Shown piece after piece: positions 17,495 to 23,097 of a stretch of 47,499 nt of DNA; within the stretch, counting starts at the first letter, position 1; the number at the start of each line of letters is the position of its first letter. Position numbers and translations under genes: made by a program. Origin of the DNA: Colwellia sp. (lineage in GTDB: Bacteria > Pseudomonadota > Gammaproteobacteria > Enterobacterales > Alteromonadaceae); contig JAPYOP010000029.1 in the NCBI GenBank assembly GCA_029938115.1, positions 6,442 to 53,940 on the forward strand. The letters run 5' to 3'. The notes under the pieces are model-generated. The model worked only from the letters and a program-made list of their open reading frames with translations. It had not been told where the DNA came from and did not search any database.

Positions 17495-17968
17495 ATGTTT
17501 GATAAAATACTCATTAGCCGTTGTTTTTTAGGTGAAAATGTTCGTTACAATAGCGAAATAATACCGTTACAGCACAAGCTACTAACATTGTGGCAGCAAC
17601 AAAATCGCTTCATTGCTATCTGCCCTGAAGTCTTTGGTGGCCTGTCTGTACCTAGAGAGCCTGCTGAGCAGCAACCAAATAGTGATAAAATTATTACTAT
17701 TACCGGCAAAGATGTTAGCGCACCGTTTAATTTAGGTGCAAAACAAGCGCTAGCATTATGCCAACAACATAACATTCGCTTTGCACTACTCAAAGAATCA
17801 AGCCCATCCTGTGGTAGTACACTTATTTATGATGGCTCATTTTCTAACCATAAAATTGTAGGACAAGGAGTAACAAGTAAGATATTAACTCAAGCAGGTA
17901 TTAAGGTTTTTTCTGAGGATAATTTGGAGGAATTGATAAATTCACTTGATAAGGATGATGAATTTTAG
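17495..17968 (+). CDS. DUF523/TudS-type [4Fe-4S] thiouracil desulfidase-like protein
   Basis: 157 residues of DUF523. The three conserved cysteines are visible: SRCFLGENVRY near the N-terminus, ICPEVFGGLSVPREPAE, and SPSCGS. In characterised TudS proteins these hold a [4Fe-4S] cluster that removes sulfur from thiouracil, so a desulfidase role in nucleobase or tRNA-fragment salvage is likely. The VRY and PREPAE segments are family hallmarks. It is seven bases from the DUF3630 gene, and its stop overlaps the convergent GGDEF gene by four bases. Confidence 0.82.
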   Translation: MFDKILISRCFLGENVRYNSEIIPLQHKLLTLWQQQNRFIAICPEVFGGLSVPREPAEQQPNSDKIITITGKDVSAPFNLGAKQALALCQQHNIRFALLKESSPSCGSTLIYDGSFSNHKIVGQGVTSKILTQAGIKVFSEDNLEELINSLDKDDEF

Positions 17969-18948
17969 TTTATGCTTTCATTGACTACGGCTTTACGAGT
18001 TCGATTGATAAATTGATTTAGTGGCTCTTTATTTTTCATTTCACTAATACCGCACGAAATGCTCATTTTTGGTAACCTGACACCCGATTGCACACTAACA
18101 AAACGAAGCTTTTCCACGCCTTGTTTTATTTTCTCTGCTATTTCACTGGCGATACCGCCATCAACATCCGGCAGTAAAACAATAAACTCATCACTTGCTG
18201 AACGTATTGGCAAACCGCTATCATCAACATAACTGGCAACTTTCTTAGCTATTTTTGACAAAATCACATCACCAATCAATGCACCGAAACGCTCACTAAA
18301 TTGACTAAAATGATCAACACTGACCACAATAGCTGCAATGCCTCTTTCAGCATCTTCGCTAAGCCAAGCTTCAACATGTTTAGACATAGCTTTTCGGTTA
18401 TGCAAACCTGTAACAGGGTCTAAATAAATTTCTTGACGCACTTCTTCAAGCTCATCTTCTAAAGCTTGCGTTTGCAATTGGGATAACTCTAATTGTTCAG
18501 CCAATTGTTGTTGCTGTTTTTTAAATGCTATTGATGCATGATGAAGTTTTGATATAGCGGACTTTACTTCGCTCCTATCATTCGACATTAATGCTGGAAT
18601 ACTGTCATCTAAATGCTCAATAAAATCTTGCGCACCAGAAGTTGATTTCAAACAGCTTTCTTGAATTTGAGTAAATAATGTTGAAAGATCAGAAATGATG
18701 TCATCGCGAAATTTACTTTGCTCTAGTAAATGGTCTTTATATAACTGCTCCATAAAGAAGCCGTCTAATCCTTTACCTGATAATAATAACCGCTTAATAC
18801 TTGCCGTTAAAATTGGTTTTTTATTTTTACAATACTCATAACTAACCGCATAGTTTATTGGATTAACAGGCAAACGCCACTGATTCAGTTGAGCAACTGC
18901 CAGCGTCATGGTTTTATGTGCTTGCTTTATTGAATCGTGATACTTCAC
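17965..18948 (-). CDS. GGDEF-domain protein with atypical signature ASDEF
   Basis: 327 residues: a helical N-terminal half with a coiled coil (about 120-165) and a C-terminal GGDEF domain beginning DPVTGLHNRKAM. The signature loop reads RSASDEFIVLLP, so GGDEF is replaced by ASDEF. The second glycine, which contacts the substrate GTP, is Ser. There is no RxxD inhibitory site in the segment before it. It may be a weak diguanylate cyclase or a catalytically dead GTP/c-di-GMP sensor. No transmembrane segment is visible, so it is cytoplasmic. It is convergent with the TudS gene. Confidence 0.85.
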   Translation of the reverse strand: MKYHDSIKQAHKTMTLAVAQLNQWRLPVNPINYAVSYEYCKNKKPILTASIKRLLLSGKGLDGFFMEQLYKDHLLEQSKFRDDIISDLSTLFTQIQESCLKSTSGAQDFIEHLDDSIPALMSNDRSEVKSAISKLHHASIAFKKQQQQLAEQLELSQLQTQALEDELEEVRQEIYLDPVTGLHNRKAMSKHVEAWLSEDAERGIAAIVVSVDHFSQFSERFGALIGDVILSKIAKKVASYVDDSGLPIRSASDEFIVLLPDVDGGIASEIAEKIKQGVEKLRFVSVQSGVRLPKMSISCGISEMKNKEPLNQFINRTRKAVVNESIN

Positions 18949-19118: not shown

Positions 19119-20909
19119 ATGAAAAAGTTTTTATCATTATTTTGTCTTTATTTTTTGCTAAGTTGTAGCCAAACAACAAGCCTTAATGATAAAGAAGCAG
19201 TCACTCTCAGTGATCAACAACTGCAACAAATCATTATTACTTATCAGCAGTTTTATCAGCAAAGTAGCCCTTTTAACGATCCTGAAGAAGGCGGAAACAA
19301 TGGTAAGTTACCCAACCTTGCTCCTGAATTTTTAGCTAAGCAGAATAAAAAACTGCAAAAAATATACAAAGCCCTTATCAATATTGATGTTGATGAACTA
19401 AATGCAGACAATCAGATTAATAGTGCCGTTTTAATTTACACTCTAAAAAATCAATTAGACAGCTATAGCAACAAAGAGCACTACATGCCGTTAACGGCTG
19501 AATCTGGTTTTCATGTTTGGATAGCCAATATTAGTCAGCAGGTCAATTTAAAAAGTGAGCAAGATTACCGAGACTATTTATCTAAGTTACGCGCTCTTCC
19601 TCATTATTTTTCACAACAAACCGCATGGATGAACATAGGAATAGCAGCAGGTATTACTCAACCTAAAATAGTACTCAAAGGTTTCGAACAATCAATTCTT
19701 GCCTTTATAAAAGAAGATGTGACCGATAGTGGTTATTACAAACCTTTCAAGGAAATGTCTGCATTTATATCACCTGAAGCTCAAAAGAGTATTCAAAAAG
19801 AAGCCAAAAATATTATAGCCAAACAGGTCATGCCAACGTATCAAAAATATTATGATTTTATGGTAAATCGCTATAAGCAACATGCCAGAGATAACATTGC
19901 TGCGACATCACTACCCAATGGTAAAAGTTATTATCAAAATAGAGTACAGCATTACACCACCATAGATATTACTGCCGAGCAGGTTCATCAAAAAGGTTTA
20001 TCCGAAGTTAAACGAATTCGTGCTGAAATGGATGAAATCATCAAGCAAGTGAAATTTGATGGTGATTTTAAAGCTTTTATTGATTTTTTACGAAATGACC
20101 CACAATTTTACGCTAAAACACCTGTTGGCCTATTAAAAGAGGCATCATATATAGCTAAAAAAATGGATGCTAAATTACCCTCTTTGTTTAAAACGCTACC
20201 AAGAACTCCTTATGGTGTCGTTGAAGTACCCGCAAATATAGCGCCCAAATATACAACCGGACGCTATTCTGGTCCTGCTCGCGATGATCAAGCGGGAAAC
20301 TACTGGGTCAATACCTATAGGTTAGATAGACGGCCATTATACGTATTGCCTGCATTAACATTGCATGAAGCAGTACCTGGTCACCATTTACAGGGCTCTA
20401 TCGCTCAAGAAATGAAGAATGTGCCTAAATTTCGAAACCGAATCTATATATCTGCCTTTGGTGAAGGTTGGGGATTATATTCTGAATATCTTGGTATAGA
20501 AGCAGGTATATATGAAACACCTTACCAAGATTTTGGCCGTTTAACTTATGAAATGTGGCGAGCTTGTCGCCTTGTTGTTGATACCGGTATGCATGCTCAA
20601 GACTGGTCAAGACAACAAGCTATAGACTATCTTGCGAGCAATACCGCTCTATCATTGCATAACGTACAAACAGAGATAGATCGATATATTTCGTGGCCTG
20701 GTCAAGCTTTATCATACAAAATTGGTGAACTAACAATTAAACGTTTACGTAAAAGTGCCGAACAAGCTTTAGGAGAAACGTTTGATTTACGGGATTTTCA
20801 TGATCAAATTTTAAAGCATGGTTCAATGCCATTAAGCATGCTAGAGAAAGTAATCAATCAATATATCGCTGATGAAAAAGCAAAGATAAAAGTAAAAACA
20901 AAAAGTTAG
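19119..20909 (+). CDS. DUF885 family lipoprotein metallopeptidase
   Basis: 596 residues with a lipoprotein signal (LYFLLSC, Cys16) and the DUF885 metallopeptidase domain. The zinc site LHEAVPGHHLQG and the downstream EGWGLYSEYL glutamate fit the family, whose members are membrane- or envelope-bound peptidases. It is likely anchored in the envelope and degrades peptides; substrate unknown. The gene stands alone. Its 3' flank holds an oppositely oriented c-di-GMP riboswitch whose transcript would run into its 3' end. Confidence 0.9.
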   Translation: MKKFLSLFCLYFLLSCSQTTSLNDKEAVTLSDQQLQQIIITYQQFYQQSSPFNDPEEGGNNGKLPNLAPEFLAKQNKKLQKIYKALINIDVDELNADNQINSAVLIYTLKNQLDSYSNKEHYMPLTAESGFHVWIANISQQVNLKSEQDYRDYLSKLRALPHYFSQQTAWMNIGIAAGITQPKIVLKGFEQSILAFIKEDVTDSGYYKPFKEMSAFISPEAQKSIQKEAKNIIAKQVMPTYQKYYDFMVNRYKQHARDNIAATSLPNGKSYYQNRVQHYTTIDITAEQVHQKGLSEVKRIRAEMDEIIKQVKFDGDFKAFIDFLRNDPQFYAKTPVGLLKEASYIAKKMDAKLPSLFKTLPRTPYGVVEVPANIAPKYTTGRYSGPARDDQAGNYWVNTYRLDRRPLYVLPALTLHEAVPGHHLQGSIAQEMKNVPKFRNRIYISAFGEGWGLYSEYLGIEAGIYETPYQDFGRLTYEMWRACRLVVDTGMHAQDWSRQQAIDYLASNTALSLHNVQTEIDRYISWPGQALSYKIGELTIKRLRKSAEQALGETFDLRDFHDQILKHGSMPLSMLEKVINQYIADEKAKIKVKTKS

Positions 20910-20939
20910 AAGGATTTAGAAACAAAAGGCAAGGAAGCC

Positions 20940-21056
20940 ACGCAAAGTAAACCGGGGAAACAGACTTTAAGCTGTTTAAAATAGAAGAGCCCCCACTACA
21001 TCTAAATTTGGCAGTCCCGCTGTCATAGGTTTCCCGTTAGACCGGTTACTTTGCGT
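20940..21056. repeat. Inverted arms linking the riboswitch core to a downstream segment
   Basis: Arm 20940-20955 (ACGCAAAGTAAACCGG) is the inverse of 21042-21056 (CCGGTTACTTTGCGT), with one bulged A. On the minus-strand transcript the second arm is the conserved ACGCAAAG core of the aptamer, so the downstream arm can pair with and disrupt it. On the plus strand the same arms form a hairpin at the DUF885 3' end. Whether it is an expression platform, a terminator or a second degenerate aptamer copy is open. Confidence 0.55.
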
Positions 21057-21085
21057 CTCCAACTTTCGTTAGATTTGCCCTTGTC
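21010..21085 (-). ncRNA. Cyclic di-GMP-I (GEMM-I) riboswitch aptamer, minus strand, no gene downstream
   Basis: Read 5'-3' on the minus strand, the segment has all the GEMM-I landmarks in order: AGGGCAAA, stem TCTAAC-GAAA-GTTGGA with the GAAA tetraloop, the invariant GACGCAAAG, then CCGGTCTAACGGGAAACC, CTATGACAGC and GGGACTGCC. The order and loop sizes agree closely with the Vibrio Vc2 class aptamer. It lies 21010-21085 and is followed on its own strand by only the antisense of the DUF885 gene. The normal targets of this riboswitch class are motility, pili, chitin/adhesin and c-di-GMP genes. None is here on this strand. Confidence 0.85.
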
Positions 21086-21106
21086 GAGCTTTAGCAGCTC
21101 AAGGTC

Positions 21107-21134
21107 ATTATAATGCCTCATTTATAATTGTAAA
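21107..21134 (-). promoter_or_regulatory. Promoter of the minus-strand riboswitch transcript
   Basis: On the minus strand TTTACA (21134-21129) and TATAAT (21112-21107) are spaced 16 bases apart, a near-ideal sigma-70 promoter. A start point near 21100 would begin the RNA about 20 bases ahead of the GEMM-I core, as expected for a riboswitch leader. Confidence 0.65.
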
Positions 21135-21207
21135 CAAAAAACTAACATCCTAACGTTAATCACGCTAAAATAAGTCTCCTATTTATTATAACTATGTGTT
21201 TTTATTC

Positions 21208-23097
21208 ATGTTAATGATAAAGAAAATATATATTTTCTATACTATTGTATTGATGTGTTCTTTATTTACTATCAGTTTCAACGCTTTAGCCGTTGGCAGC
21301 GAGTCTTTATCTCAAGAACAACTTATTAATCAAGTAGAGTCTTTGTTTAAACAAAATTCAGAAACCCTCAACTATAATAAAGTTGTAGCATTAAGTAACA
21401 GAATAATCTTGCGTCGCGAGATATATCCAAGTGAAATTCTTGCAAAAACATACTTGTTACTTGCTAGTGTTGCCAGTAATAAAGGTGAACTAGAAACGGC
21501 ATTACAATTTACTCAAGATGGTTTAGCCATTGCTACTCGGCACAAAAAAATCAAATTATGCTTACAAATAAAGTTAGCCAGTATTCACTCAGCTAAAAAG
21601 CAGTATGAACAGTTACTGATAACCGCTCAACTGGCAATTGACATGCCACAAAATGAAGAAAACACTAAGTATTTTTTATTTGCTTTAAGTTATCGAAGTG
21701 TGGCATATGCAATGCTGAATCAGCACGAGAATGCGCTAGCTGATTTACAAAGCATTGAAGCTATTATTAAGCAAAATGCTTCTTTTGCAGAGCATATATC
21801 ACTACTAGCGATTCTAGCCAACGCTTATTATCATTTAAAGGATTATCAAACGGCCCTAACTGTTCAATTAAAAATATTAAAATTGCGCTTTAATTTAAAT
21901 AAATTAGATAATGTTGATCAAACATATTACCACTTAGCCAATGCTTATTATCACTTAAATAGATTTAACGACGCTTATAATAGCTATTGGGAAGCTAAAA
22001 GATATGCCAAGAAAAAAACTGCGCCAATTTATGTAGCCTATGCAAGCCAAGGGCTAGGATTAACGCTAATTCAGCAAAAACACTATGCCGAAGCTAAAAC
22101 TGAAACGTTAGAAGCAAAAACTTTATTTTACCAAAATAATTTAGCTAGACCCTACGTAGAAACAATCATCTCTCTGGCGCAGATAAACAACTTAACTAAG
22201 CAAAAAAAGCAAGCCACAAATTTAATACTAGAAGCAGAAAAATTATTATTGAACATTGAATTATCAGGTGATTTCATAGTTTTATACCAATTGCTTGCGG
22301 ATATTTATCACGTCAAAAAAGACATAGATAAAGCATACTTTTGGCAGGAAAAATACAGTGCAGCTTTATTTAACCTCAATAAATATGCACACCTAAATCA
22401 CCAACCATCTGTCCAGCACGATATTATTCTAGATAAATCAGTAAATGCTTCTGCTAGTAACAAAAGGCGCCAACTAGCGGTCAATCTTGCTGAACAAAGC
22501 GAGTTAGCAATATCTTTTTCGAAAAAATATCATCAGCAACAAACCTTTATTTTTATCTTATCACTCGTTATAACATTACTTCTCGGCTTTGTTATATTTT
22601 TCTGGTTAAAGCATCGCGCTAAAAAGTTGAGAACTACCTATGATGCCTTAGAAAGGCCAAGTTATTTAATTGCCGATCCAGTGCAAACAAAACAGCTTTA
22701 TAAAAAAAGTTTTAATATGGCTAGAAAATACAATTACCCTCTAACTTTAGGCTATATATCAATTAGTAATTGGCAAGAGTTAGCCTTTCAATTTAATAAG
22801 AAAATTACGACAGAAGTTAGCCGAGAAATAGCAAGTTTAATCAATAAGCACATTAATGAATTTGAAAATGCGGGGTTAATTAATGATGGCGAGTATTTAT
22901 TAGTTTTTCCACATCAGCATAAAGTGGATGTAGAAAAGAAGATGGAAAAGCTTATATCTGCCTTAAAGCTGAGATTTTTTGCCAATTTAGGGGAGTTTTC
23001 AGTTACAATTGCTGACTCAGTTGAAAGTCCAAACTTTCAAGATATTGATCCATATATTTTCCTATCACAACTAAGTGATTCAATAAAAATCAGGTGA
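21208..23097 (+). CDS. TPR sensor membrane protein with degenerate GGDEF-like domain
   Basis: About 629 residues. A signal peptide (ending FNALA) leads to a periplasmic tract of tetratricopeptide repeats (about 35-400; e.g. NAYYHLKDYQTALTVQ and NAYYHLNRFNDAYNSY), one transmembrane helix (about 445-468), and a C-terminal domain of about 150 residues. That domain resembles GGDEF in outline: a region like TKQLYKKSFNMARKYNYPL, then NDGEYLLVFP where GGDEF would lie. The catalytic motif is lost, so it is probably not a cyclase. The start is unsettled: GTG 21196, ATG 21208 and ATG 21214 are all possible, none with a good ribosome binding site; the ATG at 21214 gives the cleanest signal peptide. It is followed four bases later by a small membrane protein. 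Confidence 0.75.
   Translation: MLMIKKIYIFYTIVLMCSLFTISFNALAVGSESLSQEQLINQVESLFKQNSETLNYNKVVALSNRIILRREIYPSEILAKTYLLLASVASNKGELETALQFTQDGLAIATRHKKIKLCLQIKLASIHSAKKQYEQLLITAQLAIDMPQNEENTKYFLFALSYRSVAYAMLNQHENALADLQSIEAIIKQNASFAEHISLLAILANAYYHLKDYQTALTVQLKILKLRFNLNKLDNVDQTYYHLANAYYHLNRFNDAYNSYWEAKRYAKKKTAPIYVAYASQGLGLTLIQQKHYAEAKTETLEAKTLFYQNNLARPYVETIISLAQINNLTKQKKQATNLILEAEKLLLNIELSGDFIVLYQLLADIYHVKKDIDKAYFWQEKYSAALFNLNKYAHLNHQPSVQHDIILDKSVNASASNKRRQLAVNLAEQSELAISFSKKYHQQQTFIFILSLVITLLLGFVIFFWLKHRAKKLRTTYDALERPSYLIADPVQTKQLYKKSFNMARKYNYPLTLGYISISNWQELAFQFNKKITTEVSREIASLINKHINEFENAGLINDGEYLLVFPHQHKVDVEKKMEKLISALKLRFFANLGEFSVTIADSVESPNFQDIDPYIFLSQLSDSIKIR

Follow-up and report, generated by a model that had tools for sequence, protein, structure and literature searches.

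Sequence comparison leads us to favour, with modest confidence, the view that a c-di-GMP-I riboswitch on the minus strand of a Colwellia sp. genome is part of a dedicated small RNA gene of the Colwelliaceae, one that would be switched by c-di-GMP, stand alone and act in trans. That it is a conserved dedicated RNA gene, taken by itself, we regard as highly probable. As judged from related genomes, a promoter, a 5′ hairpin, the aptamer and a 3′ domain of about 95 nt form one conserved unit that has no fixed downstream gene. Discrete transcription of this unit, ligand binding, an exposed surface that depends on the state of the RNA, and an action in trans are steps that we infer. Riboswitches are usually cis leaders, and stand-alone riboswitch RNAs are few. 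The original prediction for this DNA, which was centred on the riboswitch, overlooked the 3′ domain, its G-rich loop and the conservation of the unit as a whole.

The window, i.e., the whole stretch of DNA that was analysed and to which all coordinates refer, comprises 47,499 nt (Colwellia sp., assembly GCA_029938115.1, contig JAPYOP010000029.1, positions 6,442-53,940). Its relevant features are collected in Table 1.

Table 1. Features of the RNA locus and of its neighbours in the window.
Feature	Positions	Strand	Basis or remark
Sigma-70-type promoter, TTTACA-16-TATAAT	21107..21134	-	11/12 consensus bases
Predicted small RNA transcript, about 180 nt	20921..21100	-	5′ end deduced from promoter, 3′ end from the drop in conservation
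5′ hairpin GAGCU-GCUAA-AGCUC	21086..21100	-	87.8% of cells paired; two-sided changes in 3 pairs (A4)
c-di-GMP-I (GEMM-I) aptamer	21007..21089	-	RF01051, 75.4 bits
G-rich hairpin AGAUG-UAGUGGGGGCU-CUUCU	20983..21003, loop 20998-20988	-	one U-U stem mismatch in the window
Predicted anti-aptamer strand	20940..20955	-	CUUUGCGU pairs with ACGCAAAG (21056-21049)
Pyrimidine-rich tail	20920..20939	-	can pair with AAGGGC (21082-21077) or the GGGGG loop
DUF885 gene, convergent, not part of the RNA gene	19119..20909	+	PF05960, 572.5 bits
TPR-protein gene, divergent, not part of the RNA gene	21196..23097	+	TPR families; PF04320 below its cut-off
GGDEF-domain gene, next sizeable same-strand gene, about 2 kb downstream	17965..18948	-	PF00990

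Aptamer, promoter and limits of the RNA

RF01051 is the sole Rfam family that reaches its gathering score within the window (35 bits, against the 75.4 bits observed; E 4e-13), and the covariance model matches over its full length on the minus strand. This bears out the minus-strand GEMM-I riboswitch of the original prediction. The promoter that had been proposed on the same strand is present as well, with a -10 box, -35 box and spacing that recur across homologous loci, and the claim that no gene stands behind the riboswitch agrees with the list of open reading frames of at least 20 aa, which holds no useful same-strand frame downstream.

Throughout, we compared 98 homologous loci. The 38 from the genus were selected by the motif GTGGGGGCT, and the remaining ones by R1, a covariance model built on the 3′ domain. 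The aptamer core GGCAAA is found in 97 of them, the exception being locus L058 of genome G022, and the other core strand, ACGCAAAG (21056-21049 in the window), in all 98. With both core strands intact, the ligand-contacting G (G20 in Vc2 numbering) is presumably retained.

From the single genome, the promoter call is weak, since 4 promoter-like sites lie in 20700-21400 against 2.7 (sd 1.5) in shuffled sequence. Across the 98 loci, TATAAT is found in 93, TTTACA in 89 and the 16-base spacer in 93. Ten-base means of the conservation profile of 38 orthologues range from 0.66 to 0.98 inside the unit, and drop to 0.61 at 20929-20920 and to 0.31 at 20919, i.e., before the end of the DUF885 coding sequence is reached. 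The fall upstream of the promoter is softer (0.58-0.77 over 21180-21140). The 3′ end of the RNA estimated in this way (about 20921) and the end of the convergent DUF885 gene lie 12 bases apart. No intrinsic terminator was found in 20700-21400, nor an ordinary U-run terminator among the homologues, in which the longest T run within the first 30 nt is at most 5 in 89 of 98 loci; the position of the 3′ end is therefore conjectural, and transcription may continue beyond it. The first 20 nt of the tail are 82% pyrimidine with a C/G ratio of 3.3 (98 loci), which falls to 1.3 downstream, and a Rho-type C-rich region at the 3′ end is possible on these grounds.

A hidden small reading frame was considered and rejected. 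The same-strand frames of at least 20 aa over or just after the RNA encode 32 aa (ATG, 21121-21023, starting ahead of the expected transcript start), 28 aa (TTG, 21062-20976) and 23 aa (TTG, 20925-20854). Start-like triplets inside the RNA recur because the RNA itself is conserved (GTG at +9 in 75 loci, GTG at +82 in 72 and ATG at +52 in 59), and none is common to all 98. The frame that opens with the aptamer ATG, present in 68 of 98 loci when a looser motif is used, varies from 7 to 73 aa, the commonest length being 16 aa (17 loci). It does not look like a conserved peptide, and may yield a short product in some species.

The same genome has one further c-di-GMP-I aptamer (L002/L069, contig C93). 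It looks like an ordinary cis leader, as it precedes the gene of a small protein that appears to be secreted, with a T-rich tract following the aptamer. Matches of about 100 nt that are similar to this riboswitch recur in many genomes of the genus. Other recurring types of c-di-GMP-I locus in the genus are those of L012, L023 and L030 and of L007, L034, L038 and L039. Some of these other loci are without an obvious open reading frame immediately downstream, and may be further orphan elements.

Distribution in the Colwelliaceae

RF01051 matches were detected in 38 of 39 genomes of the genus. The element with its promoter, 5′ hairpin, aptamer and 3′ domain (CUUUGCGU and pyrimidine tail) likewise occurs in 38 of the 39, at 38 loci. 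These 38 include G022, in which the aptamer core is changed (L058 lacks GGCAAA) and the 3′ domain is kept. The survey of the 39 genomes gave no match for the RNA in G034.

In the family as a whole, 73 of 246 genomes, spread over 18 of 52 genera, have a match to the model R1, which was built from 32 of the 38 genus sequences (alignment A2) and includes the last 14 bases of the aptamer. Among the 63 R1 matches outside the genus, 60 loci were fetched, and all 60 have an aptamer directly 5′ of the 3′ domain, while R1 itself holds just those 14 aptamer bases. The three other matches are G131 (37.2 bits), G154 (29.3 bits) and a second match of G093 (26.8 bits), where no RF01051 match was found. G154 (L271) is without any aptamer match, and its G-rich loop is changed as well; this single case suggests that aptamer and loop are one working unit.

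A two-part pattern, ACGCAAAGT-N(45-75)-GYGGGGGCT, occurs in 96 of 395 family genomes and 20 of 52 genera, with one match each, or in 95 genomes and 19 genera once G261, a chance match as judged by its letters, is set aside. A reversed-pattern control gave two matches in the same 395 genomes. G060 is a divergent but true homologue (RF01051, 67.8 bits). In a collection of genomes from 84,980 species, a stricter pattern detected 69 stretches, 66 of them Colwelliaceae-like. These 66 records are assigned to Colwellia, Cognaticolwellia, Thalassotalea, Thalassomonas, Litorilituus and Colwelliaceae or Alteromonadaceae bins, and include one "Gammaproteobacteria" bin and one "Endozoicomonas" record. The remaining three stretches (Dehalococcoidia, Acidobacteria, Actinomycetes) were dismissed as chance, no RF01051 match being present in the fetched sequence. 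An order-wide R1 search with stricter filters matched 10 of 394 genomes, all within the family itself. A mobile origin was rejected too, for no match was found in phages, in plasmids or, by exact pattern, in viral contigs.

The RNA is present in the record titled Endozoicomonas sp. G2_1 (L188), whose probable twin (L134, genome G039) has a Colwelliaceae gene order. The organism name of the record is probably wrong.

Predicted structure and a possible switch

Structural comparisons drew on alignments A1 (37 of the 38 genus orthologues, L058 left out), A3 (63 of the 98 loci, used for no model) and A4 (58 of the 98). A4 leaves out 26 genus rows, ten rows of g52 with a long aptamer extension, and L111, L126, L151 and L152.

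The loop of the G-rich hairpin, UAGUGGGGGCU, is exact in 90 of 98 loci, and GGGGGCU is present in all 98. Part of this invariance is due to selection, since the loci were picked by a motif (genus) or a model (others) that contains the loop; for all that, motif-based selection left just 1 of the 39 genus genomes without it. The stem varies (AGAUA/UAUCU, AGACA/UGUCU, AGGUA/UACCU, AGAAA/UUUCU and others), and 13 genus rows, including the window, have a mismatch in it. In A4, 98.5% of its cells are paired, with two-sided changes in 8 cells and 3 pairs. These changes exceed those in all 500 shuffles and in every slid register, a result that related sequences can also produce without structure. The count of further pair types is not above shuffles, 448 of 500 being as high for the G-rich hairpin and 361 of 500 for the whole structure. 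On this alignment evidence, the stem appears to covary around a nearly fixed loop. The spacer 3′ of the hairpin is variable in both length and sequence.

The loop of the 5′ hairpin can also pair with the linker UUUAG 3′ of the aptamer. Their complementarity (mean run 4.49, against 3.93 in a cross-genus control; maximum 4.16 in 200 controls) is suggestive of a kissing pair, which would be absent from part of the genus.

The segment 20955-20940 of the window, CCGGTTTACTTTGCGT, pairs with the second core strand of the aptamer in the predicted fold, as had been proposed from the start. This fold is moderately more stable than those of shuffled sequences (z -2.13; 8 of 200 shuffles as good). The six core pairs of the anti-aptamer helix are standard in 58 of 58 sequences and the three flanking pairs in 43-50 of 58. 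The helix hardly varies and so shows no covariation; its support comes from complementarity and energy. The pairs between AAGGGC and the tail are standard in 32-57 of 58 sequences per pair. Compared with the average over 50 shuffled versions of the tail, the real tail is predicted to form the stronger duplex with the aptamer's AAGGGCAAA strand in 85 of 97 sequences, and with the G loop in 76 of 97.

The lowest-energy fold is the anti-aptamer form in all 21 sequences folded (17 genera, none of g52), and lies 6.9-14.1 kcal/mol below the best fold in which the core is free, tertiary contacts and ligand not being part of the calculation. Given these omissions, a switch to the anti-aptamer form in the ligand-free RNA is plausible. 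The unpaired probability of CUUUGCGU is 0.03 in the anti-aptamer form versus 0.56 with the core free, and that of GGGGG 0.77 versus 0.58 (both from 95 of 98 sequences), so that the loop is only somewhat more open in the former.

Together, these data suggest a model in which the aptamer is transcribed first and can meet its ligand. With c-di-GMP bound, the aptamer would hold, the CUUUGCGU strand would stay free, and the pyrimidine tail could pair with the GGGGG loop. Without c-di-GMP, the strand made up of CUUUGCGU and the tail would pair with both core strands of the aptamer, leaving the G-rich loop more open. The signal would thus change which single-stranded surface is exposed, either the G-rich loop or CUUUGCGU and the tail, and this surface would act in trans on another RNA or on a protein.

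Searches for complements of the loop brought no perfect 11-nt match elsewhere in the RNA's own genome, beyond the one that is part of the RNA. In the 39 genus genomes there are 67 exact loop complements, 38 in the RNA itself and 29 further ones, against 15 for a reversed-pattern control. No common sequence was found among the 10 of these 29 that were inspected, 9 of which lie over a reading frame.

The action of a second messenger through a trans-acting RNA becomes directly testable with a c-di-GMP RNA that occurs over 19 genera and has a loop that hardly varies and what appears to be a two-state switch built into it. Suitable hosts would be culturable, genome-sequenced Colwellia and Thalassotalea, and natural variants can serve as controls: G022 with its changed aptamer core, G154 with its aptamer lost, and G034 with no match. 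At slightly less than even confidence, we put forward that the RNA represents a new class, a c-di-GMP-gated trans-acting small RNA in which an anti-aptamer strand wires the aptamer to the G-rich loop UAGYGGGGGCU, and this loop would meet a partner conserved to the same degree. If so, other RNAs or an RNA-binding protein would be reprogrammed by a second messenger throughout an entire family of marine bacteria.

Neighbouring genes, alternative roles and known systems

Neighbours were counted at the 82 of 98 loci with wide flanks, using open reading frames of at least 90 aa grouped by blastp. The next gene downstream is a convergent DUF885 gene in 54 loci, a same-strand GGDEF gene in 24, and another gene in 4, namely a convergent gene of presumably oligoribonuclease-like type (2), a convergent gene of the 2-thiouracil-desulfurase family (1) and a same-strand gene that we take, like the oligoribonuclease-like ones, from the start of its sequence to be helicase-like (1). 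It lies on the opposite strand in 57 loci and on the same strand in 25, and no single gene follows the RNA throughout. The upstream neighbour is a divergent TPR gene in 70 loci, a thioesterase gene in 11 (the one in the window being PF02551) and another gene in 1. Dependence of the RNA on the TPR gene was considered and rejected, as 12 of 82 loci lack it next to the RNA, and of these 12 genomes, the 8 that were searched for it (six of g52, G017 and G032) are all without a match at E≤1e-15. G017 has the RNA with its promoter in a different gene context. G034 is without both the TPR gene and the RNA, and G022 has the TPR gene beside its changed aptamer.

Of the two GGDEF-type neighbours in the original prediction, the minus-strand one matches PF00990, while the plus-strand protein (21196-23097) belongs to TPR families and has no Pfam match to PF00990, any GGDEF-like C-terminus being too diverged for the model. 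The minus-strand protein has RSASDEF where the GG(D/E)EF motif is expected, so that the cyclase may be catalytically dead or divergent. In the window, a motif CTAGAGAATA lies upstream of this GGDEF gene (19011-19002, minus strand), with DUF885 between the gene and the RNA. Similar motifs precede the GGDEF gene in many relatives, including L143, L149, L137, L125 and many loci where it directly adjoins the RNA, and are perhaps a shared promoter or operator.

As the adjacent genes are fixed in most loci, room is left for a role in cis. The RNA could be the leader of the same-strand GGDEF gene, with the riboswitch controlling read-through directly or across the antisense DUF885 gene, as in a non-contiguous operon. 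The anti-aptamer helix and pyrimidine tract would then be a weak terminator that c-di-GMP releases. A GGDEF relative as next same-strand gene in the 24 loci (within 500 nt in 23), or about 2 kb downstream as in the window, is compatible with this, and so is a tail that is T-richer than windows farther downstream (6-7 T of 8 in 60 versus 21 of 98 loci). We nevertheless consider such a leader unlikely. In many genomes, a motif of its own lies upstream of the GGDEF gene, and in several genus genomes and those of g52, where the RNA is retained, the three nearest genes listed downstream include no GGDEF relative. Moreover, the 3′ domain looks alike, by eye, with or without a GGDEF gene following, and it has no long U-run, while other GEMM-I loci of the genus (L002, L062) have T-rich tracts. 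An antisense action on the convergent DUF885 gene, which is the next gene in 54 loci and in the window ends within 500 nt of the riboswitch, would fit the available part of a survey in which c-di-GMP riboswitches show the strongest antisense tendency (PMC9943018). It is very unlikely in our view: the RNA is retained in 28 of 82 loci with a different next gene, some of which belong to genera with DUF885 at this place in other members, and conservation ends short of the DUF885 coding end.

The RNA might also be an abundant reservoir or sponge for c-di-GMP, as proposed for the Bdellovibrio merRNA in the accessible part of its description (PMC3627812). An orphan aptamer with a near-consensus promoter in most loci would serve this purpose; a sponge would presumably have no need of an anti-aptamer strand or of a G-rich loop that is almost invariant, and the loop is changed where the aptamer is lost (G154). 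We regard it as quite unlikely. That the RNA is the relic of a lost gene's leader could be argued from the decayed copies in G022, with its core changes, and G154. It is so improbable that we reject it, because promoter, aptamer and 3′ domain are still found together in 38 of the 39 genomes of the genus; the hairpins covary, and no one gene follows in all relatives, as a comparison of synteny at the 82 loci showed. Among the readings offered by the original prediction, that of a stand-alone or trans-acting RNA is hence the favoured one, while the relic falls away and an antisense or 3′-UTR regulator of DUF885 is unlikely as a general function, the RNA being retained where DUF885 is not the next gene.

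Antisense action has been proposed generally for riboswitches at the 3′ ends of convergent genes, and the available part of the 2023 survey counts 152 c-di-GMP riboswitches in antisense and 2,554 in sense orientation, its abstract naming the antisense riboswitches for SAM in C. acetobutylicum and for cobalamin in Listeria (PMC9943018). The RNA described here resembles them in its position 3′ of a convergent gene in the window, and differs in being retained where the convergent neighbour is a different one. The survey also names a gene of unknown function in Colwellia sp. PAMC 21821, A3Q33_07785; this may be the present locus, in which case its antisense placement is already in print, and the available part of the text holds no description of a conserved 3′ domain for the Colwellia riboswitch (PMC9943018). 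No such RNA in Colwelliaceae was recognisable, by title or opening lines, among the open-access PMC matches listed.

With ordinary RF01051 riboswitches, the Colwelliaceae RNA shares a full aptamer above the gathering score, and differs from them by having no fixed downstream gene and a 3′ domain of its own over 19 genera. Rli55 and EutX are riboswitch-gated trans-acting small RNAs with cobalamin as ligand and a known protein partner. The likeness to them, as far as their description goes, is that of an RNA which stands alone, is switched by a ligand and has a further functional domain, and the ligand and the known partner set them apart.

The closest precedent is merRNA of Bdellovibrio bacteriovorus, which like the Colwelliaceae RNA has a c-di-GMP riboswitch in a non-coding RNA without a conserved open reading frame following. 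In the accessible part of its description, merRNA is a 445-nt RNA that is massively expressed in the attack phase, is proposed to be a reservoir, and has reportedly not been detected beyond the Bdellovibrio lineage (PMC3627812). Our exact-pattern scan, which is not an alignment with merRNA, has no Bdellovibrio record among its 69 stretches. The stand-alone c-di-GMP case found in print is reported from one lineage, whereas the RNA of the Colwelliaceae spans 19 genera.
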